Assembly (NCBI GenBank): GCA_038880555.1
Contig: JAVZRN010000004.1
Span: forward strand, 1 to 37,226
Length of the DNA stretch: 37,226 nt
Source: Candidatus Bathyarchaeia archaeon
GTDB taxonomy: Archaea; Thermoproteota; Bathyarchaeia; Bathyarchaeales; Bathycorpusculaceae
Direction: 5' to 3'
Each line of letters begins with the position of its first letter. Within the stretch, counting starts at the first letter, position 1. The notes under the pieces were generated by a model, which saw nothing but the letters and a program-made list of their open reading frames with translations, had not been told where the DNA came from and ran no database searches. Shown piece after piece: positions 12,309-36,850 of the stretch. The position numbers were made by a program, and so were the translations under genes.

Positions 12309-12339
12309 GGCGATGTTCTCCTAAAGGTTCTTTGGATAC

Positions 12340-15862: not shown

Positions 15863-15891
15863 AATAGCCCACGTATGCTAATTTTAGGTAA

Positions 15892-18380: not shown

Positions 18381-18381
18381 A

Positions 18382-18424: not shown

Positions 18425-18488
18425 CAAAAGCCAGAGGGCAAACAAGCCCGTTTCTGGCTTCTTTCTGCTGAAGCAAGCAGATTTGGAG

Positions 18489-19729: not shown

Positions 19730-19781
19730 GCAAACCTGCTTTGCCCAACCGAATTCGCCGTCGTAAATGCGTTCTTCCTCT

Positions 19782-20216: not shown

Positions 20217-20228
20217 TTTTAGGCGCCT

Positions 20229-21509: not shown

Positions 21510-21595
21510 TGCCGATTCTCCAATAATTGCGTGGCTTAACAATTATAAGTGTATGCTCCTCTTATAATGTCTAATGCTGACCAGGGGACAAAACA

Positions 21596-22195
21596 TTGGA
21601 AAAACAAGGTTTCTTCGTATGTGTCGAAGGTTTGGACGGTTGCGGAAAAACAACCCAGGCTAAAATTCTTGTGAGAAGATTGCGGAGGATTGGCTACCCT
21701 GCAGTTTACACAGCTGAGCCTAGTGCTGGAAAAATCGGGAAGTTCATCAAGAGGTATTGTTTACATGGCGGGAAGCGCGTCTCCAGCATAGTTGAAGCCC
21801 TACTTTTTGCGGCTGACCGGTATGAACATGTGGAAACTGAAATAATCCCCGCCTTAAAAAATGGAAAAATAGTCGTTTCCGACCGCTACCTTTACTCTTC
21901 TCTGGCTTACCAAGGGGCCGCCGGGCTAAACCTGGACTGGATTAGAATGATAAATGAGCATGCAATCCCGCCAAATTTGGCAATTTTCATAGACGTAGAA
22001 CCAAACATCGTCATCAAAAGACTGAAACCTAAAAAGTCCATTATGGAAAACCTTGAAACCCAGCGTAGAGTTCGAGAAGTCTATCTGAAATTTGTTGAAA
22101 ATGGCGAACTTGTCAGAGTTGATGGAAACAAATCAAAAGAGGAAGTTGCCAAAGAAATTTTGTCAATAGTTTTAGACTGCTTAAAAGGCGGTTAG
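21596..22195 (+). CDS. tmk: Thymidylate kinase
   Basis: A 199-residue P-loop kinase: FVCVEGLDGCGKTTQAKIL (P-loop, residues about 7-25), YTAEPSAGKIGKFIK (DRX-like substrate region preceding), VVSDRYLYSSLAYQGAAG with the DR(Y) motif, and the lid region after RLKPKKSIMENLETQ. It phosphorylates dTMP for DNA synthesis. The start is a TTG at 21596, the first start after an in-frame stop, with AGGGGAC about 6 bases upstream. It converges on the next gene with a 4-base overlap of stops. Confidence 0.93.
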   Translation: MEKQGFFVCVEGLDGCGKTTQAKILVRRLRRIGYPAVYTAEPSAGKIGKFIKRYCLHGGKRVSSIVEALLFAADRYEHVETEIIPALKNGKIVVSDRYLYSSLAYQGAAGLNLDWIRMINEHAIPPNLAIFIDVEPNIVIKRLKPKKSIMENLETQRRVREVYLKFVENGELVRVDGNKSKEEVAKEILSIVLDCLKGG

Positions 22196-22689
22196 ATAGC
22201 CTTCAAAACTTTTCTTGAGAAAAGCTTGTTAACCCTTTCAGCAATTAGGTTGATGAGATCTTCTGGTGGCACGTGTCTTGGTCCCCTCTCATGAAAAATG
22301 AGCACTTCCACAGAGCCCGCGTTAAATATTAGGCGGAGCATGTAATAGTCAAATTTTAGCGGAGATCGTTTCCCGTCATGCTCTCTGTAGTATCGTATAG
22401 CACAGAAAAAGTCCATTATCCGAAGGGGCGCCCGACGAATCTCTCCTAAAACTTTCTGTGTTTCCTCCAAGTCAAGATAGTTGAATGTGTCGCCATCAGC
22501 TATCCCAAACTCGAAGATAACAGTGCGGTCAGAAGCTGAAGGACTTGCGTTTTCGAAGCTTAAGTTTTTGCCATTAAGTTTTTCTAGGCATTGGACCAAA
22601 GCCCTTTGAAGTGTTTTATTGGAAATGGTTGTGGCGAAGCGCATTACCTTTTGCACGTTTACAGGAAAATTTTCGTATAAGCCAAGCAT
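22192..22689 (-). CDS. Conserved archaeal protein of unknown function
   Basis: A 165-residue soluble protein. It begins with a hydrophobic, helical segment (VNVQKVMRFATTISNKTLQRALVQCLEKLN), followed by a beta-rich half with RTVIFEFGIADGDTFNYL, LKFDYYMLRLIFNAGSVEVLIFHERGPRHVPPEDL and an ending helix. No catalytic motif was recognised. It is divergent from nothing nearby and lies downstream of UPF0148 on the same strand, a common kind of archaeal neighbourhood. Function unknown. Confidence 0.6.
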   Translation of the reverse strand: MLGLYENFPVNVQKVMRFATTISNKTLQRALVQCLEKLNGKNLSFENASPSASDRTVIFEFGIADGDTFNYLDLEETQKVLGEIRRAPLRIMDFFCAIRYYREHDGKRSPLKFDYYMLRLIFNAGSVEVLIFHERGPRHVPPEDLINLIAERVNKLFSRKVLKAI

Positions 22690-22710
22690 GCCTTAGCCCT
22701 CGCTTACCAG

Positions 22711-23097
22711 CTAGATTCTTTTGGCTTTTCTTACTTTTTCCAAATTTTCCAGAAGCCCAGAAAGCGCCGAGCCGAGTTTCTGAAGCTCCTCAACATTTGT
22801 TTCATGCAGCATCTTCTCTTGAATTTCTTGTATTTTCGCCAATAATGTGGCCTCAAGGGTTTCAAGGCTTAAGGCGCTCGTCACTTTTGTCAGTTCCGCC
22901 TCTTCTTTAACAATAATCACTTTTTTCTCGCATCTTGCGCACCATAACTCCCCACTCTTAAGCCTGAAAAGCGGAGAAGCACAAATCGGACAAGCGAGCT
23001 CCGTAAGGGTTTGACCTTGACGGAGTAGGTCAGCCATACGTTTAATGTACTGCTCTTCAACAGCTTTCGCGTCTGCTTCCTTTGTGTTTTGTGACAT
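22711..23097 (-). CDS. UPF0148 family zinc-ribbon protein
   Basis: About 128 residues from the ATG at 23097 (a TTG at 23112 is also open). The zinc ribbon is CPICASPLFRLKSGELWCARC, with two CxxC pairs, and the rest is helical and charged, ending with a coiled-coil-like NVEELQKLGSALSGLLENLEKV. This matches UPF0148, related to human autoantigen p27. Function is unknown. It shares a divergent promoter with the UPF0147 gene. Confidence 0.8.
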   Translation of the reverse strand: MSQNTKEADAKAVEEQYIKRMADLLRQGQTLTELACPICASPLFRLKSGELWCARCEKKVIIVKEEAELTKVTSALSLETLEATLLAKIQEIQEKMLHETNVEELQKLGSALSGLLENLEKVRKAKRI

Positions 23098-23118
23098 CTC
23101 CTCATGCCTCAAAAATAA

Positions 23119-23136
23119 ATAGGCATAAAAGCCTAT
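23119..23136. promoter_or_regulatory. Inverted repeat in a divergent promoter
   Basis: ATAGGC (23119-23124), ATAAAA, GCCTAT (23131-23136) is a perfect 6-bp inverted repeat overlapping the TATA-like elements between UPF0148 and UPF0147. It may be a coincidental symmetrical TATA region or a shared operator. Confidence 0.35.
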
Positions 23137-23172
23137 ATAACTTGATTATCTGAGATTGATGTGGTGACTGGC

Positions 23173-23451
23173 ATGGTTAGGAAGAAGAAGCTGGAGGAGT
23201 ATGAGGAGCGAATAAAGCAGGCTATGGCTGTGCTTGCGGAGGTTTCAGAAGACACCACAACTCCCCGCAACATTAGAAGGGCGGCTAAGGACTCGATGAA
23301 CGCCCTGCAAACAACAGAGTTCACACCAGCTGTTAGGGCTTCAAACGCCATATCCATATTAGACGAGATTTTACAAGATCCAAACATGCCGCCCTACACG
23401 CGTGTGAAGCTTTGGAATGTAATGAGTATACTTGAAGCCATAAAAGATTAG
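23173..23451 (+). CDS. UPF0147 family small helical protein
   Basis: A 92-residue helical protein of the UPF0147 family: VRKKKLEEYEERIKQAMAVLAEVSEDTTTPRNIRR, TPAVRASNAISILDEI and NMPPYTRVKLWNVMSILE. I chose ATG 23173 because GGTGA lies 5 bases upstream; GTG 23161 is open too. It is widespread in archaea with unknown role. Five bases separate its end from the frame of the cupin gene, which suggests co-transcription. Confidence 0.88.
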   Translation: MVRKKKLEEYEERIKQAMAVLAEVSEDTTTPRNIRRAAKDSMNALQTTEFTPAVRASNAISILDEILQDPNMPPYTRVKLWNVMSILEAIKD

Positions 23452-23492
23452 GAAATTTGACGTTAAAATACACTTTACGGGGGAGCATCCTC

Positions 23493-23843
23493 ATGAAGGT
23501 TTTCCATTATAGCGAGGTTAAAGCCGAAGAAGCCCAAGAAGAGGGGGCTTCAAAGTTGAAAGTTAGATGGCTTATCACAAGGGACATTGGCGCTCCAAAT
23601 TTTGCCATGCGGCTTTTTGAAATGGAGCCAGGAGGACACAGCCCATTACACACTCACCCATGGGAACACGAAGTCTTTATTCTAGAGGGCGAGGGCGTCG
23701 TCATCGGCGCTGATGGGGAGAGAAAGTTTAAGCCCGGCGATGTAGTTTTTATTCCGCCCAATGAGAGGCACCAGTTTAGAAACAGCGGAAATAAAACCGT
23801 AAAGTTTCTTTGCCTCGTTCCTCATCACAATAAATCCAAATAG
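23493..23843 (+). CDS. Cupin-domain protein
   Basis: A 116-residue single-domain cupin from ATG 23493 (GGGGGAG about 7 bases upstream). Motif 1 is HSPLHTHPWEHEVFILEGEG with the metal-binding His/Glu set, and motif 2 is FKPGDVVFIPPNERHQFRN. The fold binds a metal ion; the substrate cannot be told. A neighbouring A/T-rich gap and TATA box separate it from the flavoprotein gene. Confidence 0.85.
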   Translation: MKVFHYSEVKAEEAQEEGASKLKVRWLITRDIGAPNFAMRLFEMEPGGHSPLHTHPWEHEVFILEGEGVVIGADGERKFKPGDVVFIPPNERHQFRNSGNKTVKFLCLVPHHNKSK

Positions 23844-23944
23844 GTTTTCTTGGTTAATTCTACGACATCGCTGTAGTTTCAAGATTCGCTAAAAATATAT
23901 GCTTGTTGTCACATCTAGTTTTGGGCTTCAAGAGGTATGAGGCT

Positions 23945-25330
23945 TTGAAATATGATGTGATAATTGTCGGTGCTGGTCCAGCCGGGATATTTTCAGCCCT
24001 TGAAATTGTTGAAAAAGCAGATCTCAACATATTAATGCTCGACAAGGGTCCAGATTTAGAGCGGAGAAAATGCCCAGCAAGCAGGGGCTTCGGCTGTGTA
24101 AACTGTGAACCATGTGGGCTTCTATGCGGGTGGGGTGGAGCTGGAGCCTTCAGCGACGGCAAACTAACCATATCCACGGAAGTTGGCGGCTGGCTAAACC
24201 AATATATTTCAGAAAAGGAGCTGGGCGAGCTGATAAATTACGTGGACAGTGTTTACATCAAATTTGGCGCTCCAAATCGAGTTTACGGAGAAGACGTAGA
24301 AAAAGTTGAGGAAATCGAGAGAAAGGCATCATTAGCTGGACTAAAACTTATTCACCAGAGGATTAGGCACATGGGAACTGAACGTTGCGCCCAAACACTG
24401 CGAAAAATGCGCCAAGAACTCAATGGAAAAGTTGACATTAAAATGAGGAAAGATGTTAAGGGGCTAATAGTGAAAAACGGCGTGGTTGAAGGCGTCGAAA
24501 CAGTTGACGGAGAAAAGTTCTTCGGCAAATATGTAATTGTGGCGCCTGGAAGGGGTGGAGCGGAATGGCTTCAAACAGAAGCCCAAGCGTTAGGGTTAAA
24601 AACACTTAACAATCCCGTGGACGTCGGCGTCAGAGTGGAAGTTTTAGCTGCAGTTATGGAGGAGCTAACAAATATCCTTTATGAACCGAAATTCGTTTAC
24701 TACTCAAAGTTTTTCGATGACCAAGTTAGGACTTTCTGCGTGGCGCCCTACGGCGAGGTCATAACCGAATCCTACAATGGGGTCTTGACTGTTAATGGGC
24801 AGAGCTATGCCGAGCGGAAAACAGAAAACACAAACTTCGCAATTCTCGTTAGCACATCATTCACAGAACCCTTCAAAGAACCCATAGCCTATGGAAAATA
24901 TTTGGCTAGGCTCTCAAACCTCCTAAGCGGAGGCATACTCATACAGCGTCTAGGCGACTTAGAAGCTGGAAGACGCTCAACACCAGAAAGAATCGCAAGG
25001 AGCATTGTAGCACCAACGCTAAAGAACGCCACACCCGGCGACTTAAGCTTCGTCCTACCATATCGTTATCTTGCAGATATAAGGGAGATGCTTGAAGCCC
25101 TAGATAAAATCGCTCCAGGAATACACTCACGAGACACGCTGTTATATGGTGTGGAAGTGAAATTCTACTCCTCAAGGCTGGAGTTAAGCAGCGCCCTTGA
25201 AACAAAAATACGAAACCTATTCACAATAGGCGACGGCGCCGGGGTAACTAGGGGTCTAATACAAGCTTCAGCGTCAGGCGTTATAGTTGCAAGAGAAATT
25301 TTGAAGCGTGAAAAACAGAAGGTTAAATAA
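23945..25330 (+). CDS. FAD-dependent dehydrogenase (COG2509-like)
   Basis: About 461 residues from a TTG at 23945. This start is supported by AGAGGT 8 bases upstream and by a TATA run (AAAAATATAT at 23891-23900) that would be too close to an earlier TTG at 23903. The N-terminus KYDVIIVGAGPAGIFSAL is the Rossmann FAD-binding motif, followed by Cys-rich CPASRGFGCVNCEPCGLLCGW, FSDGKL, and a C-terminal LFTIGDGAGVTRGLIQASASG that closes the FAD site. The Cys cluster may bind an iron-sulfur cluster or be redox active. Substrate unknown. Confidence 0.82.
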   Translation: MKYDVIIVGAGPAGIFSALEIVEKADLNILMLDKGPDLERRKCPASRGFGCVNCEPCGLLCGWGGAGAFSDGKLTISTEVGGWLNQYISEKELGELINYVDSVYIKFGAPNRVYGEDVEKVEEIERKASLAGLKLIHQRIRHMGTERCAQTLRKMRQELNGKVDIKMRKDVKGLIVKNGVVEGVETVDGEKFFGKYVIVAPGRGGAEWLQTEAQALGLKTLNNPVDVGVRVEVLAAVMEELTNILYEPKFVYYSKFFDDQVRTFCVAPYGEVITESYNGVLTVNGQSYAERKTENTNFAILVSTSFTEPFKEPIAYGKYLARLSNLLSGGILIQRLGDLEAGRRSTPERIARSIVAPTLKNATPGDLSFVLPYRYLADIREMLEALDKIAPGIHSRDTLLYGVEVKFYSSRLELSSALETKIRNLFTIGDGAGVTRGLIQASASGVIVAREILKREKQKVK

Positions 25331-25331
25331 A

Positions 25332-26084
25332 GTGTCAATAGTTAAGGAATTGAGCTGTTCTTACTGTGGTGCACCCATCTCCTTTGAGCCTGGCGAAATT
25401 ATAGCAACATGCAGATACTGCGGCTACACTGTGGTAATTGAAACCGGAAAGGCCTTCACCTTTGAGCATTCAATGCTGCTGAACAAGTATAGTTTAGTGC
25501 AGGTGGAAGAGCCTGTCAGAGGTTGGATGAGTTCTGGATTTCTCAAACCAGCAGATCTAGCTAAGAGGTCAAGAATAATTGAGAAGACGCTGATGTATCT
25601 CCCCTTCTGGATCATATCGGTTGAGGCGGAAAGCATCTACAAAGGCATTTTTGAAAGGATAACCCCACCCCTTGTGAAGGAGGGGAAAATTGTGAAAAAG
25701 TATGACTGGCTTGTTCTCGCAAGAAAAGCCACACGATTCCCAACAAGAGAATACGACGTTCCATTGGAGGGCAAGATTCCATACGACTTTAGGAAAGTCG
25801 AGGATTTCGCCAAAATATTAAACAGTGAAATTGACAGAGATGAGGCTGTTGAAATCGCCAAACAGCAGATTGTGGAACATCACCAATACCTGGCACAGCA
25901 AGATGTCGACAGAATCATTGAAATGAAAAACGAGATAAAAGTTGGTCAAACGGTTTACCTCCACGCGCCGATATGGTTCATAAAATACGAGTATAAGGGT
26001 GAAATCTACAATTTGTGGCTGGATGGAGCAACTGGAACCGTGATAAAAGGGGATATACCAACAGCCAAATTCGGAATATTTTAG
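25332..26084 (+). CDS. Zinc-ribbon protein of unknown function
   Basis: About 250 residues from GTG 25332, 2 bases past the flavoprotein stop, with AAGGTT about 8 bases upstream. The N-terminus has CSYCGAPISFEPGEIIATCRYCG, a two-CxxC zinc ribbon. A longer helical and beta part follows with YLPFWIISVEAESIYKGIFERITPP and a C-terminal LHAPIWFIKYEYKGEIYNLWLDGATGTVI, similar in style to archaeal proteins with a domain that binds membranes or metal. No catalytic motif seen. Possibly co-transcribed with the flavoprotein gene. Confidence 0.65.
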   Translation: MSIVKELSCSYCGAPISFEPGEIIATCRYCGYTVVIETGKAFTFEHSMLLNKYSLVQVEEPVRGWMSSGFLKPADLAKRSRIIEKTLMYLPFWIISVEAESIYKGIFERITPPLVKEGKIVKKYDWLVLARKATRFPTREYDVPLEGKIPYDFRKVEDFAKILNSEIDRDEAVEIAKQQIVEHHQYLAQQDVDRIIEMKNEIKVGQTVYLHAPIWFIKYEYKGEIYNLWLDGATGTVIKGDIPTAKFGIF

Positions 26085-26166
26085 GCTTACGCATAAAGCT
26101 ACTCTAATAAACATTTTTTATCCACATACTACACATGAATATTGCCGGTAGAGGTTTGAAAACGCA

Positions 26167-27771
26167 ATGGATGGCGGAATTATAGGGCGTGGAACATGGT
26201 ACGATAAAATGGCTCTGAAAATAATTGAAAGAGAGCGAAAGCTAGGCAGAAGCCTAGATATGATAAGAACCGAAATGGGACTGGGAGCTTCAGGTTTTCC
26301 CCACATCGGAAGTTTAGGCGATGCCGCCCGCGCTTTTGCCGTCACCCTAGCCCTGAGAGAGCAAGGCTACCGTTCAGAGCTAATAGCCTTTTGCGACGAC
26401 AAAGACGGACTACGCAAAGTCCCGGCGGGGCTGCCGAAAACTCTAGAGAAATATTTGGGATTTCCTGTCACGGACATTCCAGACCCATTTAAATGCCATG
26501 ACAGTTACGGCAGACACATGAGCCACCTCTTACTTGAAGCCCTAGACAAATGCAACATAGAATACCATTACATATCGGCTAAAGACGCCTACAAAAACGG
26601 CTTACTAAACAATGAAATTCGAACTTTGCTTTTAAATGCGAAGAAGGTTGGGGAAATTGTCAAGGAAGAGGTAGGACAAGAAAGATACATGGAGGTCTTG
26701 CCATACTTCGCAGTTTGCGGAAACTGTGGGAGAATATACACCACAAAAGCGCTTGAATACCTTCCGAAAGAGGATAAGGTGCTTTACGTTTGCGATGGTA
26801 TGGAGATTAAGGGCAGATGGATTGAAGGTTGTGGATACAAAGGCGAAACTGTCATTACAGAAGGTGAGGGAAAGTTAAGCTGGAAGGGCGAATTTGCAGC
26901 AAGATGGAAAGCCCTAGACATAAGATTTGAGGCTTATGGCAAAGATATTGCCGACTCGGTTCGCGTAAATGACAGAATATGCCGCGAGGTGCTGGGCTGC
27001 GAACCGCCAGCCCACGCAAAATACGAAATGTTCCTTGACAAAAGCGGGAGAAAAATTTCAAAGTCAACAGGTAACGTTTTCACGCCGCAAGTATGGTTTA
27101 GGTATGGTTCACCTCAATCGCTCATGCTCCTCATGCTAAAAAGGTTTGTTGGGACTCGCACTTTGGACGTGACGGACATACCATTATACATGAACGAACT
27201 GGACTATTTAGAAGACATATACTTTGGAAAAAAGGCGATACCAGACAAAAAAGAACTAGTAAAACTTAAGGGTTTATATGAGTACTGCTGGGTCTTAAAA
27301 CCGCCCAAACAACCAAGCATACACGTGCCATATAACATGCTAACTTTTCTGGCTAAAATCGCGCCAAAGGGCAAAGAAATAGAGTTTATAACAGAAAAAC
27401 TACAAAGCTACGGCTATCTACAAAAAGGACAACAGCCAGACCAAAACCTAAAAAGACGAATAGAATATGCCCTCAACTGGGTTAAAGACTTCGAAGAAAT
27501 CCGGGAAACGCCCATAACCCTAAAACCGGAAGAGAAAAACGCCATAAAAGAACTAATCGAAACCCTAAAAACAGAAGAAGAGGCGGAAAAAATACAAAAC
27601 GCCATATTCAACACCGCCAAAAAGCACGGCATACCACCACCAGAATTCTTCAAAACCCTATACACTATACTAATAGGCACATCACAAGGACCAAGACTAG
27701 GCCCCTACATAACCGCCATGGGCAAACAAAACGTAATAAACGCCTTACAGCGCATTTTAAACCAAACCTAA
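26167..27771 (+). CDS. lysS: Class I lysyl-tRNA synthetase
   Basis: A 534-residue class I LysRS, the type found in most archaea. The HIGH-like motif is GFPHIGS (His46-Ser49); the KMSKS-like motif is KISKSTGN in the second third; and CGNCGRIYTTK plus GCGYKGE carry Cys pairs typical of the family. It attaches lysine to tRNA-Lys. The ATG at 26167 follows GAGGTTTG about 12 bases upstream. The 3' part is A-rich; T-runs after the stop (27779-27795) probably end the transcript. This is the last host gene before element B. Confidence 0.95.
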   Translation: MDGGIIGRGTWYDKMALKIIERERKLGRSLDMIRTEMGLGASGFPHIGSLGDAARAFAVTLALREQGYRSELIAFCDDKDGLRKVPAGLPKTLEKYLGFPVTDIPDPFKCHDSYGRHMSHLLLEALDKCNIEYHYISAKDAYKNGLLNNEIRTLLLNAKKVGEIVKEEVGQERYMEVLPYFAVCGNCGRIYTTKALEYLPKEDKVLYVCDGMEIKGRWIEGCGYKGETVITEGEGKLSWKGEFAARWKALDIRFEAYGKDIADSVRVNDRICREVLGCEPPAHAKYEMFLDKSGRKISKSTGNVFTPQVWFRYGSPQSLMLLMLKRFVGTRTLDVTDIPLYMNELDYLEDIYFGKKAIPDKKELVKLKGLYEYCWVLKPPKQPSIHVPYNMLTFLAKIAPKGKEIEFITEKLQSYGYLQKGQQPDQNLKRRIEYALNWVKDFEEIRETPITLKPEEKNAIKELIETLKTEEEAEKIQNAIFNTAKKHGIPPPEFFKTLYTILIGTSQGPRLGPYITAMGKQNVINALQRILNQT

Positions 27772-27806
27772 AAACCCTTTTATTGCCATTTTTCTCATAC
27801 TAAAGT

Positions 27807-27832
27807 GGGCCCGTAGTCTAGCATGGATAGGA
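27807..27832 (+). tRNA. 5' part of a tRNA gene only (truncated or split)
   Basis: Right after lysS, bases 27807-27813 are GGGCCCG, followed by TA and a D-arm GTCTAGCATGGATAGGA, which matches the 5' end of archaeal tRNAs such as Arg or Val. No anticodon arm, T arm or matching CGGGCCC end follows within the next several hundred bases. From 27825 the sequence instead forms a perfect hairpin, GGATAGGA-AAAA-TCCTATCC (27825-27844). It may be an attachment-site remnant, an insertion-disrupted tRNA, or the 5' half of a split tRNA. Confidence 0.5.
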
Positions 27833-27897
27833 AAAATCCTATCCGAACTTATATCTATGGTATCGCGCGTTTTCAGATACACTTTCATTTTTGGCTG

Positions 27898-28335
27898 TTA
27901 GGTTTGAGTCAGTTTGTTTTCGAGGTCTGAATATGTTATTGTTTTTATGAGTTTGCTTGCTGTTTTCTTTAGTTTTTCGTCTTCTGTTACTAGGGTGGCT
28001 TCCGCGTTTCTAGCTGTTGCTATGTATGAGGCGTCGTAGAAGGTTATCCCTTCTTTGTAGGCTATTTGGAGTGTGTTGGAAAAGTCTAGTTTTGTGAATT
28101 TTATTGTTTTTATCACGCCTCTTGTGGCTAAGTCTTTTATTGTGGTGGCGGTGTCTATGGCGTCCTCTATGGATATTGATTTCAATAATGTTGAAAGCTT
28201 CCAGAGGCTGTTACATGCTTCATATAGCGCTAGGTCAGTGGTGACCAAATCTTCACGGGAAGCCTCAAATAATAGCTGTTTGCCACGTCTAACGACCAGT
28301 GGCAATAGTGCTGAGGCGTCAAGTAAATACTTCAA
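27898..28335 (-). CDS. vapC: VapC toxin (PIN-domain ribonuclease)
   Basis: A 145-residue PIN protein: KYLLDASALLPLV with Asp6, TDLALYEACNSLW with Glu39, TFYDASYIATARN with Asp101, and LVTEDEKL with Asp119, the acidic set that binds metal in the PIN active site. VapC enzymes cleave tRNA or rRNA when not bound by antitoxin. It overlaps the upstream antitoxin gene by 4 bases, the usual arrangement, and is the closest element gene to lysS. Confidence 0.87.
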   Translation of the reverse strand: MKYLLDASALLPLVVRRGKQLLFEASREDLVTTDLALYEACNSLWKLSTLLKSISIEDAIDTATTIKDLATRGVIKTIKFTKLDFSNTLQIAYKEGITFYDASYIATARNAEATLVTEDEKLKKTASKLIKTITYSDLENKLTQT

Positions 28336-28562
28336 TGTGCTTCCCTATCTTCGCGTACAAGCTTGGCAACCAATTTCGGATCTATTCTGCGGCCCAATCG
28401 CTCCTTTAACCTATCCAACCTTTCCCCGAGATCCCTCAATTCCAATTCTACAAGATATTTTTCAAGCAATTTTCTCACAGTCTCGCTCACGTTAACATTG
28501 TATTTTTCCAACTTTTCCTTAATTTCCCTCGCAACCCTAATGGTTATGACGCTCATGTTCAC
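28332..28562 (-). CDS. vapB: VapB-type RHH antitoxin
   Basis: A 76-residue protein. SVITIRVAREIKEKLEKYN then VSETVRKLLEKYL form a ribbon-helix-helix domain, and a Lys/Arg/Glu-rich helix (ERLDRLKERLGRR) leads to the toxin-binding tail. The start is GTG 28562 or ATG 28556. A TATA box about 25 bases upstream places the transcript start at or near the first codon, suggesting a leaderless message. A palindrome directly before the start is the likely autoregulatory site. Confidence 0.82.
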   Translation of the reverse strand: MNMSVITIRVAREIKEKLEKYNVNVSETVRKLLEKYLVELELRDLGERLDRLKERLGRRIDPKLVAKLVREDREAH

Positions 28563-28563
28563 C

Positions 28564-28594
28564 GTATTACAATTTGTAATACAACTTTATAAAG
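28564..28594. promoter_or_regulatory. VapBC operator and TATA box
   Basis: GTATTACA-ATT-TGTAATAC (28564-28582) is a perfect 8-bp inverted repeat just before the antitoxin start codon. The CTTTATAAAG run at 28585-28594 is a TATA box for the leftward transcript. RHH antitoxins of this class bind such sites between TATA box and start, so this is probably the VapB/VapBC operator. Confidence 0.65.
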
Positions 28595-28635
28595 CTTAAC
28601 CTTTCATTCAAGACCTCACTCAAACAGCGTTCCTC

Positions 28636-30516
28636 TCACAGCTTTCTTATTTTTCCTGGTTCTGGCTGGTATATTTGACCTTGTTGCGTTAAGCGCCATA
28701 TGGCTGTTTCAACAGCCGCCTTTTCCAAGCCTTCTTCTTCGTAGGCTTGTTTGACTATTTCTTCTATTGGGATTGTTTTGTTTGGAAGATTTTCCATAAG
28801 CCATTTCATGGCTTGGCTTAAGCCTTTCGTCTGTATTGTCTGAGGTTTCCAAAGCTCTTTCTTGGGCATAGCCTCCGCCTGCGCCTGAAGCGTTTGAGTG
28901 CTTACAGTGGCTTGCTTTATTTGGGGCTGGTAATCCATTAGAGTTACAGTTGGCGTAGCTTTCTCTTTAAGCAGTTCTGGCAGTTTCCTGTTTAGTTGGC
29001 TTATTATGCGCTTCATTTTTCTGGTTCTTGAAATGCTTGACCAGTAGAAGGCCTCGTCAACGGTGTCTTCGGCTATTAGGATTGTTACTTTTCCTGCTAC
29101 GCGTCTTCCTGTTCTGCCTCTGCGTTGTATGTAGCGTATCTCGCTTGGAACAGGCTCATAAAAAACTACGTGGTCAACTTCTGGAATGTCTAAGCCTTCT
29201 TCTGCTATGCTTGTGGCCACCAAAACGTTTGTTTCTCCGCTTCTAAGCTTTTCAAGGGCTTCACGCTGCTGCTCTTGGCTCATTCCCGGGTCGCCTTCCC
29301 TCTCGCCTTGACCAACGAAACGTTCAACCCTAAGCTTTGAATTGTTGTTTAGAGCTTTTACTAGAGTGTTTACTGTGTCGCGGTACTGCGTGAAAATTAT
29401 CAGCCTCGAGTCGGGTTTGGCTTGGAGCTGAGCCTCCAAAACTTTGACGAGCTCATTTACCTTTGGGTTTTGTGTTGCCATGCTGTTTCTAAGCGCTTTT
29501 CTAGCTTCAATAAAGAGTGGATCGTTTAGGATTGATTTGTGGCCTCTGCTTCCTTCCATGGCCATGCGTTTTAGGCTTTTCTCAATGAAGGCTTCAAGGG
29601 TTTCTGGGCCTTGGGATTCTATTAGCTCTATCATGTGGGCTATGCTTAGGGCTGCTGTGGCCTCCACTTTAAGCTGGTATAGGTATCCGCCTTCGCCTCC
29701 TCCAAGCCTACGCTGCAGTTCATCGTTAAGCTCAATTAAATCGCGCCTTGTTATGAAGGCTGGTTGCTTGTCTGTTAAAACGCCTAAGGCTTGTAGGCCC
29801 TTAACGCGTTCAACAAGCATCTGCCTAAGCCTATCCCGGACAGCCAAATACTCCTCTGGAGGCTTAACCCTTCGCCACTCAACTTCTATGGGCTGGATGT
29901 AGGGCTTAACGTCCTTATCCTCGTCTGTTCGGTGCTCTATGGCTGTTATGCCCAAATTTCTGCAGACTTCAGCTATTTTTTCTTCGCTTCCTCCTGGAGA
30001 GGCTGTCAAACCCAGAACTAGGGGTTTGCGGCACTGTCTAAAGTAGTAGGTGGCTATGCCAACGTAGGCGTAGTTCCCCCTAGCCCTATGAGCCTCATCA
30101 AAAATTATGAGCGAAACATTATCCAGCCTTAAAAGCCCGCTTTTCAAGTCGTTCCAAACACACTGCGGAGTAGCAAAAACAACCTTAGCCCTATTATATA
30201 GGGCGGCTCTATGGTTTGGCGGATAACGCCCAGTAACAAGCGCTAGTTCGGCTTCGTCAAACCATGTTTTGTCGAGAAAGGTTTGGTGGTGCTGCTGGAC
30301 AAGAGGCCGTGTGGGCGCTAAAAAGAATATTTTGCCCTCCTCCGCCCTCTCAATCGCTAAGAGTAGGGCTATAACGGTTTTTCCGAGGGCTGTTGGCAAA
30401 ACAACAAGCGTGTTACATTGGCGGGCTCTTTCCAGAATTTTGTTTTGGTATAGCCTATCCTCTACGGCTTTTTCCTTTAATAGCGGGTGCCAGACATAGC
30501 GTTTCTCAGCCAGCAT
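28636..30516 (-). CDS. Hef-like SF2 helicase without nuclease domain
   Basis: A 626-residue SF2 helicase of the Hef/Mph1/FANCM group. Motif I is LPTALGKT (residues 40-47), motif II is DEAH (140-143), motif III is GLTASPG, and motif VI is YIQRRGRTGRR. The insert with the helical part between the two RecA domains also fits Hef. The usual archaeal XPF-type nuclease half is missing: after residue 505 there is a low-complexity Gln/Thr linker, then a C-terminal winged-helix-like domain (NLPNKTIPIEEIVKQAYEEEG). In the family it remodels stalled forks. It overlaps nothing, but its small upstream neighbour ends 3 bases before it. Confidence 0.85.
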   Translation of the reverse strand: MLAEKRYVWHPLLKEKAVEDRLYQNKILERARQCNTLVVLPTALGKTVIALLLAIERAEEGKIFFLAPTRPLVQQHHQTFLDKTWFDEAELALVTGRYPPNHRAALYNRAKVVFATPQCVWNDLKSGLLRLDNVSLIIFDEAHRARGNYAYVGIATYYFRQCRKPLVLGLTASPGGSEEKIAEVCRNLGITAIEHRTDEDKDVKPYIQPIEVEWRRVKPPEEYLAVRDRLRQMLVERVKGLQALGVLTDKQPAFITRRDLIELNDELQRRLGGGEGGYLYQLKVEATAALSIAHMIELIESQGPETLEAFIEKSLKRMAMEGSRGHKSILNDPLFIEARKALRNSMATQNPKVNELVKVLEAQLQAKPDSRLIIFTQYRDTVNTLVKALNNNSKLRVERFVGQGEREGDPGMSQEQQREALEKLRSGETNVLVATSIAEEGLDIPEVDHVVFYEPVPSEIRYIQRRGRTGRRVAGKVTILIAEDTVDEAFYWSSISRTRKMKRIISQLNRKLPELLKEKATPTVTLMDYQPQIKQATVSTQTLQAQAEAMPKKELWKPQTIQTKGLSQAMKWLMENLPNKTIPIEEIVKQAYEEEGLEKAAVETAIWRLTQQGQIYQPEPGKIRKL

Positions 30517-30519
30517 CGC

Positions 30520-30789
30520 CTATAACTCCGCTGCTAGGCTTTCAATGGCCTTTTTGGCTTTCTCCCACTCCTCCTTAGACCTGAAAACAAACTTTTGCCG
30601 TCTTTTCCAGGAGTCTCCACGCTTAAACCATAGGTATAGGGCTATGTGTTTTCTTCCAAAAGCCTCGAGTAGGCCTGCGGCAGCCCACCAACGCCCACCC
30701 TTAAACAGGGTTTGAAAACGCAAAACTTTCACTTTCTCTGAAACTGGAAGCATTTCTTCCTCAGGTTTCTCTGTCAATAAAGCCCACAT
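30520..30789 (-). CDS. Small basic protein upstream of the Hef-like helicase
   Basis: An 89-residue protein rich in aromatic and basic residues (RFQTLFKGGRWWAAAGLLEAF, HIALYLWFKRGDSWKRRQKFV) ending with a helix (SKEEWEKAKKAIESLAAEL). Its stop is 3 bases before the helicase start, so it is probably a helicase partner or small regulator in the same operon. No family is recognised. It could bind nucleic acid, judging by charge, but this is unproven. Confidence 0.5.
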   Translation of the reverse strand: MWALLTEKPEEEMLPVSEKVKVLRFQTLFKGGRWWAAAGLLEAFGRKHIALYLWFKRGDSWKRRQKFVFRSKEEWEKAKKAIESLAAEL

Positions 30790-30895
30790 TAAAGTTTAAG
30801 GCGTATGGGATTTAAGATTAACGCACTCTTTGGGCTTTTATTTCACTTTAACTCAACTCTCTCCACTGTTTGAAAGGGTCGATTCGTCGCTGCTT

Positions 30896-30933
30896 TTTTA
30901 TACGCTTTTCCATGAACCGCATAATTTGCGGTT
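30896..30933. promoter_or_regulatory. Promoter and inverted repeat at the start of the rightward operon
   Basis: TTTTTATAC (about 30895-30903) is a TATA box for the rightward transcript. AACCGCA-TAATT-TGCGGTT (30915-30933) is a perfect 7-bp inverted repeat close to the expected transcript start and just before GGAGG (30934-30938) of the first gene. This suggests repression of the whole operon by a dimeric regulator, possibly one of the element's RHH proteins. Confidence 0.5.
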
Positions 30934-30948
30934 GGAGGCTGAACGCCA

Positions 30949-31203
30949 ATGCTCTCTAAAGCTTTGAATTTGGAGCTTGAGGGCTTGTCGGTTCTCCAGC
31001 GTAAGCTTCTCCTAGAACTCGTGCACAGATATCCGCATTATTGGGGCAAATTTACAAGCCATGAGTATAGCTGGCAAAGCCGGAAAGAAGCCCTAGAAGA
31101 GTTCCTGCAAAACCACCAAACCGAGTTGGCTGTAGAGTTTGCTAAATCCGGCTTGCATGGTAACGGCTGGAAAACAATAAGGAAGGGTGGAATACGTGTC
31201 TAG
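30949..31203 (+). CDS. Small protein, first gene of the rightward operon
   Basis: An 84-residue protein, mostly helical: SKALNLELEGLSVLQRKLLLELVHRY, then ALEEFLQNHQTELAVEF, and a GNGWKTIRKGG tail. The ATG has GGAGG 10 bases upstream. The end overlaps the next gene. The family is not recognised; the first helices could be a helix-turn-helix, but recognition residues are not clear. Confidence 0.5.
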   Translation: MLSKALNLELEGLSVLQRKLLLELVHRYPHYWGKFTSHEYSWQSRKEALEEFLQNHQTELAVEFAKSGLHGNGWKTIRKGGIRV

Positions 31204-31381
31204 GGCTGAGCATTGCAGGAATCCATGGAACGGTAAATGCAGAAACACGGACATTGAAGTTTTCATACTCTATAAAGGGGATAGGTTGCCCATTTGCAGG
31301 CGTTGCTGGAGCAAAATAGCAGACACCGACATAGAGTGGGGCGAACACACGCACTCAAAGGAGGGTAAGCGATGGAGTTAG
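31196..31381 (+). CDS. Small zinc-binding protein
   Basis: About 61 residues from GTG 31196 (GGGTGG 5 bases upstream). It contains HCRNPWNGKCR and CRRCWSK, giving a C-x8-C-x18-C-x2-C cluster with a His beside the first Cys. It resembles small zinc-ribbon proteins of archaeal viruses. The start overlaps the upstream stop, and its end overlaps the RadA-like start. Function unknown. Confidence 0.5.
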   Translation: MSRAEHCRNPWNGKCRNTDIEVFILYKGDRLPICRRCWSKIADTDIEWGEHTHSKEGKRWS

Positions 31382-32355
31382 AGCAGATTCCAGGCGTAGG
31401 CAAATCCATAGCCAAAAGGCTTAGGGACGCGGGCTTCCCAAACGTTGAAACTTTAGCTGTCACTCCTGCAAGGGAGGTTAAGGAGAAGGCTGGCTACGAA
31501 AAGCTTGAAGCTGCTCAGCGAATTGTTGAGGCTGCAAGGGAGCTTTTGGGTTGCAGGTTCATAACAGCCTACGAGCACTGGGAAATGACCCAAAAACGCT
31601 TGAGATGCACGACTGGAAGCAAGGCTCTTGACGCTCTTTTGGGCGGCGGCATAGAAACCCAGGCCATAACTGAGCTTGTGGGGCAGTATGGTTCTGGAAA
31701 AACCCAGCTCTGCCTGATGCTCTGCGTAACAGCCCAGCTTAAACCTGAACAGGGCGGCCTAGGCGGAAACGTACTTTACTTTGATACTGAGGGGACGTTC
31801 AGCTCCAACCGCGTCTACCAAATAGCAGCGGAAAACGGCTTGGATCCAGGCCAAACACTCCACAACATAATACTATCAAGGGTTTACACATCAGACCATC
31901 AAATGTTCCTACTGGACAATGCCTTCGAAAAATGCGCAGAGGAAAACGTAAAACTCGTGGTTGTGGACTCGGTCATATCCCATTTTAGAGGCGAATACTT
32001 GGGAAGGGAAACACTAGCCGACCGACAACAGAAGCTAAACCTTTACATGCACAAGCTCTTGCGCCTAGCTGAAATCCTAAATCTAGCCGTAGTTGTCACA
32101 AACCAAGCCCAGTCGGATCCAACACCACAATGGGGAAACCACCAAGCCACGGATAGGCCGGCTGGAGGCAACATACTGGCCCACGCATCCACAACGAGAG
32201 TCTGGCTGCGACGGGCTAAGGGCGAAGGTAAACGCATTGCAAGGGTCTTCGACTCTCCATGCCTGCCAGAGGGCGAATGCGTTTTCCGCATAACAGCAAA
32301 GAGCATAGAAGACGCGCCAGAAGAAAAGATTGAGGAAGCTGAAAAAGAGGAGTAG
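31372..32355 (+). CDS. RadA-family recombinase 1
   Basis: A 327-residue RadA-like ATPase. Residues 1-60 hold a helix-hairpin-helix domain (LEQIPGVGKSIAKRLRDAG, NVETLAV), linked by FITAYEHW, which carries the FxxA polymerisation motif. Walker A is GQYGSGKT (104-111), Walker B is LVVVDSVI (Asp199), and ESLGRETLADRQQKLN and VVTNQAQ mark the later core. It would form filaments on DNA for strand exchange. Start ATG 31372 follows GGAGGG, overlapping the zinc gene. The core is a full-length RadA, so this element carries its own recombinase. Confidence 0.87.
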   Translation: MELEQIPGVGKSIAKRLRDAGFPNVETLAVTPAREVKEKAGYEKLEAAQRIVEAARELLGCRFITAYEHWEMTQKRLRCTTGSKALDALLGGGIETQAITELVGQYGSGKTQLCLMLCVTAQLKPEQGGLGGNVLYFDTEGTFSSNRVYQIAAENGLDPGQTLHNIILSRVYTSDHQMFLLDNAFEKCAEENVKLVVVDSVISHFRGEYLGRETLADRQQKLNLYMHKLLRLAEILNLAVVVTNQAQSDPTPQWGNHQATDRPAGGNILAHASTTRVWLRRAKGEGKRIARVFDSPCLPEGECVFRITAKSIEDAPEEKIEEAEKEE

Positions 32356-32377
32356 GCGAATCTTTAGAGGTGAAGGT

Positions 32378-32662
32378 TTGGTTAGAATTCAGCGAAGGCT
32401 TTCAAGGAAACGTTATCTCGGCGGCAAATACGCCTACGAGTATGAGCGCCTATCACTGGATATACCCAGAAAATTTCACAAAAAATTGAAGCCCTTCGTA
32501 GGACAGGATTTAGACGTTGAAATAAGCGTTAAAGGCAGTTGCCTGGTCATAGCTTTAACCCCGAGAAAACGTTTCTGCACGCCGAACACCACCCGAGAAA
32601 AACCAACACCTGAAAGGCTTATTGGAGCTGAATTTTTACATGAAAATGCAAATCCGACTTAA
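32378..32662 (+). CDS. Small basic DNA-binding-like protein
   Basis: About 94 residues from TTG 32378 (GAGGTGA upstream). Sequence VRIQRRLSRKRYLGGKYAYEYERLSLDIPRKFHKKLKPFVGQDLDVEI followed by SVKGSCLVIALTPRKRF is basic, with an AbrB-like swapped-hairpin feel in the second half (IPRKFHKKLKPFVGQDLDVEISVKGSCLVI). The frame extends upstream to 32330, overlapping radA. It may be an AbrB-type regulator, but the pattern is weak. Confidence 0.5.
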   Translation: MVRIQRRLSRKRYLGGKYAYEYERLSLDIPRKFHKKLKPFVGQDLDVEISVKGSCLVIALTPRKRFCTPNTTREKPTPERLIGAEFLHENANPT

Positions 32663-32695
32663 ATATGGGCTGGCCGAAAAATTTGCACCTATAGG

Positions 32696-32715
32696 CGTTT
32701 CTGCAGGCAGAAACG
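32696..32715. promoter_or_regulatory. 20-base palindrome upstream of an RHH gene
   Basis: CGTTTCTGCAGGCAGAAACG is a near-perfect inverted repeat (9-bp arms with an AG centre) in the gap before the RHH gene at 32811. The half-site CGTTTCTGCA occurs also at 32570-32579 inside the previous gene. It is a likely operator. An A/T element at about 32658-32668 may be the promoter. The gap of 148 bases otherwise holds no convincing gene. Confidence 0.45.
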
Positions 32716-32810
32716 TTTTACCCGCAGCTTCAGCATACAAAAACCTGTTCATTAATTTAATTAGCGGCTTCCATGGATCTTGTTTTGGCATGCCACGGCG
32801 GTGAAGGGAA

Positions 32811-32993
32811 ATGGCAGTGGAGAACCAAGCTTTAGAAATACAGGCTTCTTTGAAAGGAAAGGTGAAAGAAAGATTCCTCAAGATTAAAAGGTTCAAGGGA
32901 CTGGCGGACGACGAGGTTCTTAGGCTTATGATCAACGAATATTTTGAGAAAAAATTGGCTGACAATAAGACTGGAGAGAAGACGGAATGTTAA
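32811..32993 (+). CDS. RHH-like regulator, element B family copy 1
   Basis: A 60-residue protein with ALEIQASLKGKVKERFLKIKRF then DDEVLRLMINEYFEKKL, a ribbon-helix-helix pattern. ATG has GGTGA about 6 bases upstream. It is clearly related by eye to the products at 33547-33717 and, on the reverse strand, 32990-33190 (shared RFLKIK, EVLR/EVIR and IN(E/D)Y parts). It ends convergently against the latter with a 4-base overlap. Confidence 0.65.
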   Translation: MAVENQALEIQASLKGKVKERFLKIKRFKGLADDEVLRLMINEYFEKKLADNKTGEKTEC

Positions 32994-33190
32994 CCCTTTT
33001 TTGATGATTTTAGGCTTTTCCTTATTTCTTCTTCGTGTTCTCTCCAATAATCGTTAATTAATGCGCGGATAACCTCAGTGTAGTTTTTGAGCCCCAAATG
33101 CTCCTTTATTTTTAGGAAGCGTTCTGCTATTTCGCCCTCAGCCCTCAAGTAAACCTTTAAAACTTCCCCTTCCTTTGAGCCCTTAGCCAT
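32990..33190 (-). CDS. RHH-like regulator, element B family copy 2
   Basis: A 66-residue protein: VLKVYLRAEGEIAERFLKIKEHLGL as strand and helix, then NYTEVIRALINDYWREHEEEI as second helix. The ATG has GGAGGAGGAG 6 bases upstream. Related to its neighbours at 32811 and 33547. It is on the opposite strand from the operon and is one of at least five RHH genes in 1.3 kb. Confidence 0.65.
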   Translation of the reverse strand: MAKGSKEGEVLKVYLRAEGEIAERFLKIKEHLGLKNYTEVIRALINDYWREHEEEIRKSLKSSKKG

Positions 33191-33288
33191 TTAAGACTCC
33201 TCCTCCTTTTTGTCGCAAAATGTGTACATTTGACACACGCCCCTCAAGGTATAGCCCACCCCATATTTAAGGCTTCTTAGCGTTATGC

Positions 33289-33435
33289 TCATTTCGCCTT
33301 CTCCATCCTAATCCAGTTCTTAACCGCCTCGCGGATAAGCGTTGATAGGCTGCGTCCGGTTTCGCTGTTCTTCTTTTTCAGAAACTTTATGTCTTCTGGG
33401 TCTAGGAATACGGTTACTCCCCTCTTTCTCGCCAT
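33289..33435 (-). CDS. Short RHH-like protein
   Basis: A 48-residue protein: RKRGVTVFLDPEDIKFLKKK and SETGRSLSTLIREAVKNWIRM form the strand and two helices of a ribbon-helix-helix domain. The ATG at 33435 has GGTGA 4 bases upstream. It is divergent from the RHH gene at 33547 and shares its promoter region. Confidence 0.62.
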   Translation of the reverse strand: MARKRGVTVFLDPEDIKFLKKKNSETGRSLSTLIREAVKNWIRMEKAK

Positions 33436-33486
33436 GCAATCACCTTCAATAATGTATTTGAAGCTATTTGTTTATAAGTTTTTCCA

Positions 33487-33523
33487 CTTTTTGCAACTAT
33501 CAAAAGTTTTATATTGCAAAAAG
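33487..33523. promoter_or_regulatory. Divergent promoter with 10-bp inverted arms
   Basis: CTTTTTGCAA (33487-33496) and TTGCAAAAAG (33514-33523) are perfect 10-bp inverted arms 17 bases apart. The TATA-like AGTTTTATA for the rightward gene lies between them, and a TATAAAC-like element for the leftward gene lies to their left (about 33468-33480). An RHH or AbrB dimer on both arms could silence both directions. Confidence 0.55.
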
Positions 33524-33546
33524 CCACAAAAAACTAAATTGTGTGG

Positions 33547-33717
33547 ATGAGTATGTCCGAAGGCAAAAACATCCTGGACATCCGCGTGAAGCTGAAAGGC
33601 GAAGTTAGAAACCGCTTCCTACGGATAAAAAGCGCCAAGGGCCTGACAAACAACACTGAGGTTCTGAGGCTGATCATCAACGAGTATTTTGAGAAGAATC
33701 TTGCAAAGAGGGACTGA
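33547..33717 (+). CDS. RHH-like regulator, element B family copy 3
   Basis: A 56-residue protein: ILDIRVKLKGEVRNRFLRIKSAKGL and TEVLRLIINEYFEKNL, close to the product at 32811. A second ATG at 33553 could be the start. It begins a close set of genes: 3 bases to the next, 12 bases to the third, then the second RadA-like gene. It may control the RadA/ParB/primase operon. Confidence 0.62.
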   Translation: MSMSEGKNILDIRVKLKGEVRNRFLRIKSAKGLTNNTEVLRLIINEYFEKNLAKRD

Positions 33718-33720
33718 AAG

Positions 33721-33882
33721 ATGGGTGGAAGATCACCTGCAGACGTGGTTTCGTTAGAAGACCGCGAGTTTATTCGCGAGGAGCTGGCCTGGCTTGCCGA
33801 GTGGGTTCGCAGCCGATATCCAAAACTCAACTTTTGCGACATTCGACGCTTCCTGACTGAAATGGTTTCCGTGAGCGTTTAG
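33721..33882 (+). CDS. Very small protein, unknown
   Basis: A 53-residue protein with two helices, VVSLEDREFIREELAWLAEWVRSRYPKL and FCDIRRFLTEMVSV. The ATG has GAGGGA about 7 bases upstream. It is flanked by RHH genes in the same operon. Family not recognised; it could pair with a neighbour. Confidence 0.5.
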   Translation: MGGRSPADVVSLEDREFIREELAWLAEWVRSRYPKLNFCDIRRFLTEMVSVSV

Positions 33883-33894
33883 GAGGAAAGGGTT

Positions 33895-34056
33895 TTGGCT
33901 CGTAAAGTCAAGGTTTCAGCCTCTATCGAGCAGGAAGACCTTGAGAGGCTTGAGGATTTAAGCCGTGAAACAGGCAAGTCGATAAGCTCCATTGTTTGCA
34001 TGGCCGTTAAGGAGTTTTTGGAAAAGAGGCTTAAAGGAGGGAAGAGTGTTGAGTGA
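33895..34056 (+). CDS. RHH-like protein upstream of the second RadA
   Basis: A 53-residue protein from a TTG at 33895 with AGGAGG 8 bases upstream: ARKVKVSASIEQEDLERLEDL then TGKSISSIVCMAVKEFLEKRL, a clear ribbon-helix-helix pattern. Its end overlaps the start of the RadA-like gene by several bases. Position suggests control of the recombination operon. Confidence 0.65.
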   Translation: MARKVKVSASIEQEDLERLEDLSRETGKSISSIVCMAVKEFLEKRLKGGKSVE

Positions 34057-35050
34057 AGCTGTTAGCCAAATAAGCGAGTGCGAGTTCGAAGAGTTTAGGG
34101 ATCCCCTCCTAAAGCTCAAAGGTGTAACGCCCGAGTTTGCAGCCCTGCTCAAGGAGGCGGGCTATTATACTTTAGAGTCGATTGCTGCTGAGGTTCCCCA
34201 CTTTCTATTTCAAAGAATCGGCGAGAAAATGGGTTTTAGCCTCGATAAGGCTGAGGCTCTCATTAGGGAGGCGCGAAGCAAACTTGACATCCGCATATTG
34301 TCGGCTAAAGAGCTTTACGAGGAAGAGCTTAGGCGCAAAACAATTCCGACGGGCTCAAGGGCTCTTGACGAGATTTTGGGCGGCGGTATAAGAACTCAGG
34401 AGATTACTGAGGTTTGTGGAAGCTACGCTTGCGGCAAAACAGAGCTTGTATACACAACAGCCGTTTTAGCGCCTAAAGCCTTAGGCGGAGACGTTCTAAT
34501 CTTGGACACGGAGGCCACCCTAAGCGTAACCCGAATACGCCAAATCGCAAAGGCGAGGGATCTTAACCCAGACGAGGCGATAAGCCCCATCCACCTGCGG
34601 AGGGTTCCCTCATCCTCAGACCTTACAGCAACCCTTGAAACAGCCCACAAGTTCATCAAAGAAAAAGGCATCCGCTACCTGGCCATTGACAGCTTTGTAT
34701 CCCCTTTTAGAAGGGAGTATCCTGGACGCGAGCTATTATGCCCAAGGCAGCAGAAGCTGAACTACGCCATCGGCCTACTAATAAAACTGGCAAGGGCTTA
34801 CGACATGGCTGTCCTCGTAACAAACCAGGTTCAGGCAACCCCAGTAGCCCAGTACACAACAACAAGACCCGAGTTTTTGAAACCGCCTATAGGCGGTTAC
34901 GTAATGGCGTATGGAGCCAACAACCGCATATACCTACAAGAAACCGACAAGCCAAACGTCAGCATAGCCACGCTAATAGACTCAAGCTACCTTCCACGGC
35001 AAAGCAGAACCATAAGGATAACTGAAAGGGGAATAGAAGACGCAGATTAG
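34046..35050 (+). CDS. RadA-family recombinase 2
   Basis: About 334 residues from GTG 34046, which has GGAGG 5 bases upstream and overlaps the RHH gene (TTG 34049 is possible; the frame is open back to 33992). It has a helix-hairpin-helix N-terminal part (LLKLKGVTPEFAALLKEAGYYTLESIA), Walker A GSYACGKTE, Walker B YLAIDSFV and VLVTNQV. The linker has ILSAKELYEEEL, in which Ile replaces the Phe of the FxxA motif. It differs strongly from the first RadA-like protein, so the element has two distinct recombinases, perhaps a filament former and a helper. Confidence 0.82.
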   Translation: MLSEAVSQISECEFEEFRDPLLKLKGVTPEFAALLKEAGYYTLESIAAEVPHFLFQRIGEKMGFSLDKAEALIREARSKLDIRILSAKELYEEELRRKTIPTGSRALDEILGGGIRTQEITEVCGSYACGKTELVYTTAVLAPKALGGDVLILDTEATLSVTRIRQIAKARDLNPDEAISPIHLRRVPSSSDLTATLETAHKFIKEKGIRYLAIDSFVSPFRREYPGRELLCPRQQKLNYAIGLLIKLARAYDMAVLVTNQVQATPVAQYTTTRPEFLKPPIGGYVMAYGANNRIYLQETDKPNVSIATLIDSSYLPRQSRTIRITERGIEDAD

Positions 35051-35134
35051 AAAAAGCCAAATTTTCGCCCCTTTTTCGAAAAGAGGCAAAACTTCAACAT
35101 AATATTAACACCGTCGGTAAGGTGATGATAAAAA

Positions 35135-36846: not shown

Positions 36847-36850
36847 AAGC

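Follow-up and report, generated by a model that had tools for sequence, protein, structure and literature searches.

The window analysed here, 37,226 nucleotides long, is the whole of contig C4 of the genome under study (G000; 1.75 Mb, four contigs). Directly behind lysS it carries 26 bases resembling the 5′ part of a tRNA, which run into a hairpin and a series of genes that we assign to a mobile element, element B. The features of the locus, with the integrase gene on contig C1, are listed below; among the relatives named, G001 belongs to the same genus as the window's genome and G040 to another genus of the same family.

18620–27771: host chromosome block between the contig's two integrated elements, collinear with G001:C103 and G010:C3
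26167–27771, plus strand: lysS, host flank on the attL side (TIGR00467, 276.1 bits, cut-off 147.55; synteny with G001:C103 and G010:C3)
27778–27784, plus strand: TATA-like box TTTTATT, at −29 to −23 of the tRNA-like piece
27807–27832, plus strand: tRNA-like 5′ piece, in which 27822–27832 match the element end (same bases in G040:C412) and not the host tRNA
27807–27821, plus strand: predicted attL core, 15 bp, GGGCCCGTAGTCTAG, identical to the 5′ end of tRNA-Arg(GCG) at G000:C1:27096–27110
27825–27844: perfect 8-bp hairpin, its right half belonging to the arm repeat
27837–27848, minus strand: distal arm repeat GTTCGGATAGGA, 15 nt from the 15-bp core, with an inverted copy at C1:27078–27089
27807–37226: element B, left arm, running to the contig end; its remainder is predicted to be G000:C1:1–27095 plus an unassembled gap
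27898–28335, minus strand: PIN-domain toxin-like gene at the element end (PF01850), 92% identical beside attL in G040:C412
28332–28562, minus strand: small gene with no Pfam match, antitoxin-like by a guess from its place
28636–30516, minus strand: Hef-like helicase gene (NF010337, 626.3 bits, cut-off 610), with a 95% identical sister copy at C2:4877–6754
31372–32355, plus strand: RadA/Rad51-like gene (PF08423), with a 97% identical copy in the sister element
33992–35050, plus strand: second RadA-like gene (NF003301, 250.7 bits, below the cut-off of 259), with a 96% identical sister copy
35135–36124, plus strand: ParB-like gene (PF17762, phrog_4715)
36102–36752, plus strand: primase-polymerase-like gene (PF22548, phrog_5362)
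C1:25746–27038, minus strand: tyrosine integrase of 431 aa (PF00589, 43.8 bits, cut-off 27.1), starting 58 nt from tRNA-Arg(GCG)

An open reading frame on the opposite strand (28363–28599), overlapping the antitoxin-like gene, is 96% identical in G040:C412.

The 26 bases of the piece (GGGCCCGTAGTCTAGCATGGATAGGA) occur only once in the genome when as many as 3 mismatches are allowed, and a reversed control gives 0 matches. ARAGORN makes no tRNA call there, and an Rfam scan of window 27500–28200 at E values up to 5 returns no tRNA at the piece; a tmRNA match in the same scan (6.4 bits against a gathering threshold of 47) was set aside as chance. Aligned with the intact tRNA-Arg(GCG) on C1, window 27807–27821 agrees exactly over 15 bases, after which the two sequences diverge, and upstream they have 0 bases in common. 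The first 32 bases from 27807 are unchanged at the same element end in G040:C412, so the last 11 of the 26 bases belong to the element end and not to the host tRNA. The original prediction had recognized the 26 bases as the beginning of a tRNA, which is refined here to a host match of the first 15 only; the perfect 8-bp hairpin it had described is borne out by the letters (27825–27832, GGATAGGA; loop AAAA, 27833–27836; 27837–27844, TCCTATCC). This hairpin belongs to the element's end.

The site without an insertion can be read in relatives. A lysS match was obtained in 36 genomes, and we read the first 20 of the 30 lysS loci listed. Five of these (G001, G010, G018, G008 and G014) carry an intact tRNA-Arg(GCG) starting 24–41 nt behind the lysS stop, so the piece occupies the spot of a whole tRNA gene in close relatives; the gene in G010 was read from sequence, and the one in G018 has an intron and is called Ser by ARAGORN. 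A tRNA-Arg(GCG) lies 0.9–1.4 kb behind lysS at 4 of the 20 loci, none was found within the 1.0–1.5 kb read behind lysS at 9, and the remaining 2 are G002, cut by a contig end, and the window itself. The empty site of G001 has the order lysS, tRNA, deoC, argS, histone-deacetylase-like gene. Before the intact tRNA, at about the same place as the window's box at 27778–27784, G001, G010 and G018 have CCTTTTAT, a box absent from the sequences read behind lysS in G008 and G014. The window's TTTTATT is presumably the original tRNA-Arg promoter box, now without its tRNA.

The other end of element B lies on C1, where the only Arg(GCG) gene found in the genome stands on the plus strand at C1:27096 behind the leader GATATATAAATGTTCGGATAGGAAAAATC. 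The integrase open reading frame beside it has no internal stop and lies outside att; its residues R156, K187, R272, H294 and Y302, which we take to be the catalytic residues of tyrosine recombinases, are invariant in all six aligned sequences, the query included. The 12-mer GTTCGGATAGGA has exactly two exact copies in the genome, C1:27078 (plus) and C4:27837–27848 (minus), inverted and one beside each end. At one mismatch it occurs at 13 places, more rarely than a reversed control with 36, so only the exact pair and its places are informative. These arms are predicted integrase-binding sites, and the hairpin would form part of the arm set. In both G000 and G040 it is the 5′ part of the tRNA that forms the displaced copy, with the complete gene at the opposite end (the two ends being on different contigs), and a tyrosine integrase gene lies beside the reconstituted tRNA, as in 5′-distal integration. 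The box TATATAAA, at positions −27 to −20 relative to the tRNA and on the element's side of attR, is found in G000 and at both G040 ends; G005 has a close variant, and G162 has no clear TATA box. From its sequence and place, we think it likely that this TATA-like box of the element drives tRNA-Arg(GCG), a case of promoter donation.

Both junctions recur outside the window's genome. Contig C412 of G040 carries lysS, GGGCCCGTAGTCTAGCATGGATAGGAAAAATCATATCCGAA, vapC-like, vapB-like and Hef genes in that order, with 92% nucleotide identity to the window over 1050 bp, and with about 460 bp between lysS and the piece compared with 35 bp in the window. Contig C417 of the same genome carries, at its end, the first 23 residues of an integrase (91%), followed by the attR leader, tRNA-Arg(GCG), deoC, argS and the histone-deacetylase-like gene; from the tRNA on, this is the order that follows lysS in the empty G001 site. 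In G005, which shares a family with G000, a degenerate integrase is followed by the same leader, an intron-bearing Arg(GCG) (by our reading; Cys according to ARAGORN), argS and the deacetylase-like gene, and the 240 nt behind its lysS hold no att piece. In G162, of the same class, attR stands before tRNA-Met.

The attR pattern was found at five places altogether, spread over 4 of 300 genomes (G000 among them); ARAGORN calls three of the five tRNAs Arg or Met, the one in G005 Cys, and the one on G040:C173 not at all. The piece and all five attR tRNAs have GGGCCCGT in common, for the attR places partly because the search pattern contains it and requires those bases, and four have GGGCCCGTAG; beyond these bases each attR tRNA follows its own sequence, so the crossover probably lies in the first 8–10 bases of GGGCCCGTAGTCTAG. 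The place on G040:C173 (8884–9000) is a second attR leader in that genome, before an intron-bearing Arg(TCG)-like gene whose 3′ acceptor looks mismatched and which may be a damaged gene. A match in G131 lacks a tRNA piece and is probably due to chance. A contig scan for the integrase gave four relatives: the G005 contig, with the 5′-end geometry; one in which a tRNA-Ala(CGC) precedes the integrase and turns its 3′ end to it; and two whose integrase piece has no adjacent tRNA. Viral contigs scanned with the integrase, primase-like and ParB-like genes and with two att patterns gave no relative or match, and no circular form or free attP of element B was found in these scans.

A sister element in the same genome (C2:165–6755) has 91% nucleotide identity to window 28638–35105 over 6.5 kb. 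It has an att copy of tRNA-Val(TAC) at C2:7446, with tRNA-Val(TAC) at C1:1214613 (C1:1214613–1216050), and towards the right end of C1 its related integrase adjoins this tRNA-Val. Between the left and the right end of C1 there is an inverted match of 1349 bp at 94.6% identity. Element B and its sister have the same att layout, namely outer arm, 15 nt, core, 6–8 nt, inverted arm, integrase, in which the arm–core distances depend on where the 15-bp core of element B and the 13-bp core of the sister are cut. Their integrases belong to one family (45% and 41% identity in two comparisons). The two elements differ in their arm sequences and in the tRNA end used, which is the 3′ end in the sister and the 5′ end in element B.

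Although a contig-end overlap search, which gave one exact join and two approximate repeats, found no sequence overlap between the right end of C4 and the left end of C1, the two contigs likely join through element B as a single insertion across a gap. We favour this join because the joined gene order and strands are those of G001, because the sister element shows the same kind of gap, and because the stretch next to the integrase, C1:24917–25507, is found again in G050, where it too adjoins an integrase piece. Read from C4 into C1, lysS, the tRNA, deoC, argS and the deacetylase-like gene come in the G001 order and strands, but with 39 kb, polB included, between the tRNA and deoC. In G000 polB comes after tRNA-Arg(GCG), with deoC–argS another 39 kb away, an arrangement that takes one or more rearrangements in addition to the insertion. 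The genes of C1:1.4–24.9 kb look mostly metabolic and could be cargo or host. Compared with the stretches around polB in G001, G005, G008 and G010 (cut at E 1e-10 and 35% identity), the majority give no match that passes this cut. Three match near polB, at 60% (G010:C4, about 223.8 kb, on the far side of polB), 40% (G008, an ABC ATPase) and 32% (G001, before polB), which would fit host DNA.

With both ends, the core and the empty site in relatives in agreement, the piece at 27807–27832 is very probably the left attachment site (attL) of element B, a mobile element integrated here, and not a broken or split tRNA gene. This upholds two of the explanations first offered, a disrupted integration site and an attachment copy. 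The original prediction had also stated that a matching 3′ part at the far end of element B would make the locus a plain integration split; in substance this is what we find, the complete tRNA lying at that end, on C1, across the assembly gap.

The arginine tRNA genes of G000 bear on the remaining explanation, a split tRNA. RF00005 was found at no fewer than 40 places in the genome (at least 40, with 150 of 155 first-look candidates scored), and ARAGORN was run on all 40 and on further tRNA 3′-end matches. Genes for all five Arg anticodons sought were found:

C1:27096, plus strand: tRNA-Arg(GCG), by ARAGORN
C3:7269: tRNA-Arg(TCG), by ARAGORN
C1:1178926: tRNA-Arg(CCT), by ARAGORN
about C1:1065140: tRNA-Arg(CCG), with an intron, read from sequence (Gly according to ARAGORN; not among the 40 RF00005 places)
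about C1:71697–71799: tRNA-Arg(TCT), with a D-arm intron, read from sequence (Ser according to ARAGORN; Rfam match partial, 29.1 bits)

Apparently the same tRNA-Arg(TCT) stands before polB in G010. The sole orphan tRNA 3′ half found, C3:78566 (C3:78543–78589), is a copy of the 3′ end of tRNA-Arg(TCG) and lies ~71 kb from the intact gene. An integrase gene (C3:7386–8501), 72% identical to the window's tRNA-Glu integrase, adjoins that intact gene, and together with the orphan half it likely marks a further integrated element with an ordinary 3′-type att.

That the piece is the 5′ half of a trans-spliced tRNA, its 3′ half encoded elsewhere, was suggested by 26 tRNA-like bases standing alone behind a promoter-like box, and one orphan 3′ half does exist. 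All five Arg tRNAs sought are present, however (CCG and TCT by reading, with Rfam seeing TCT in part), so a split tRNA is not needed. Further, the orphan half is accounted for as the tRNA-Arg(TCG) copy, and pairing between its flank and that of the piece is not in excess (−6.3 kcal/mol, equalled or bettered by 381 of 500 shuffles, for one flank pair); the same piece stands at the element end in G040, where Arg(GCG) is also intact. We therefore consider a split tRNA exceedingly improbable, and this part of the original prediction is abandoned. The absence of an ARAGORN call for Arg(TCT) was dropped as support for it once the gene with the D-arm intron was located.

The locus might also reflect a plain chromosomal rearrangement, an inversion or duplication with a breakpoint in the tRNA and no site-specific integration, and the tRNA now standing beside polB and not deoC does indicate that the genome has been rearranged around it. 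This reading is very unlikely given that G040 has both junctions as well, the first next to lysS along with the element genes seen here and the second next to tRNA–deoC–argS, that an integrase sits at attR, and that arms and core follow the layout of the second element at tRNA-Val; a plain inversion was rejected on the G040 junctions. We give similarly little credence to a decayed scar, left when an element was excised or lost and followed by ordinary host DNA. Such a scar would agree with a piece that no longer folds as a tRNA and with an integrase that is not on the same contig, but over 1 kb the element end and its counterpart in G040 have 92% identity, the integrase open reading frame at the other end is intact, and most downstream genes up to 35050 are common to a second integrated copy. 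Thus, where the locus had been proposed to be a decayed attachment copy, the attachment copy stands and the decay does not: in another genus the piece and the element end are preserved together.

Integration of element B would have proceeded by recombination, through its tyrosine integrase, between attP of the element and the 5′ end of tRNA-Arg(GCG) behind lysS, with the crossover in GGGCCCGTAGTCTAG. The lysS side would then retain the old tRNA promoter and 15 tRNA bases, followed by the element end with its hairpin, arm repeat, vapBC-like genes, Hef and RadA, whereas the whole tRNA would come to lie at the other element end, directly behind the integrase gene and under the element's TATA-like box. 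Because the element would enter at its 5′ end, the tRNA would lose its own promoter. The integrase would read the acceptor stem from the other strand, on which the 5′ strand GGGCCCG, seen as CGGGCCC, would mimic a tRNA 3′ end.

At 11 of the 30 integrase loci listed, a tRNA lies no more than 80 nt from where the integrase gene is inferred to start, with the 3′ end facing the integrase in 8 and the 5′ end in 3. All three 5′-facing tRNAs are Arg(GCG) (the one in G005 is named Cys by ARAGORN), and at one of the eight 3′-facing loci another tRNA-Arg, at a distance of 199 nt, faces the integrase with its 5′ end. In the outward direction, the 3′-type tRNAs examined end in GGCCC or GGTCC and the 5′-type, on the other strand, in CGGGCCC, which makes the flipped acceptor stem a look-alike of a 3′ end. 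Tentatively, and with slightly less than even confidence, we suggest that, within a family of archaeal integrases that for the most part target tRNA 3′ ends, one branch takes the acceptor stem on the opposite strand; the tRNA would thereby be flipped and its promoter lost, without harm because the AT-rich box before the integrase would serve as a new bidirectional promoter for the tRNA.

Integration at the 5′ end of a tRNA is already known, from pTN3 and Caldiarchaeum, and element B, with its intact, oppositely oriented integrase and a twin at a tRNA 3′ end, is a variant. PMC8371274 calls pTN3-like integrases unique in archaea for their use of the tRNA 5′ half and has the tRNA expressed from the integrase promoter; PMC5495485 gives a stretch of 41 bp common to attP and attB of pTN3 and an integrase gene that is disrupted on integration. 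As described there, the pTN3-like plasmids of Thermococcales resemble element B in having attB in the tRNA 5′ half and in leaving the tRNA whole, cut from its own promoter. Whereas pTN3 combines a disrupted integrase with the 41-bp stretch, element B has an intact integrase open reading frame, on the strand opposite the tRNA, and a 15-bp core; its attP does not lie inside an integrase gene split on integration, as it does in the pTN3-like (suicidal) type.

CalSub-E1 of Ca. Caldiarchaeum subterraneum is, in PMC6563490, the only 1 of 39 thaumarchaeal tRNA integrations at the 5′-distal region; it is likened to element B by its description and uses a tRNA-Ser instead of tRNA-Arg(GCG). In PMC3293823, a 5′-terminal tRNA-Thr fragment borders a recombinase element in the C. 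subterraneum clone JFF014_A09, so that there too, by description, a 5′ tRNA fragment forms one element border. Its authors link the scattering of tRNA fragments to the birth of split tRNAs and the gain of introns, and tie the JFF014_A09 case to split tRNAs, whereas nothing points to a split tRNA in element B. The same paper defines the pNOB8 type by an intact integrase beside a reconstituted tRNA on the same strand; in element B the integrase is intact but on the minus strand, with the tRNA on the plus strand. Within the text available, PMC11705971 mentions 5′-distal tRNA targets in general terms only, and PMC10848311 describes no case of 5′-distal tRNA integration.

A lone archaeal tRNA piece can thus arise without a split tRNA, which bears on the proposal (PMC3293823) that mobile elements seed split tRNAs. 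This genome contains two close elements that have related integrases and a common att layout, yet occupy opposite tRNA ends, 3′ in the one and 5′ in the other. The pair provides a natural test of tRNA-end switching, and also of how a host survives the loss of the promoter of what is apparently its only tRNA-Arg(GCG) gene.

At the far side of the host block, window 1–18563 is a provirus-like block with an HK97-type capsid gene (1894–2847), and an archaeal phage integrase gene (17349–18476) directly adjoins tRNA-Glu(TTC) (18488–18563). Window 1–127 overlaps the right end of contig C3 exactly over 127 bp, the sole exact join in the contig-end search, so C3 and C4 are probably neighbours.
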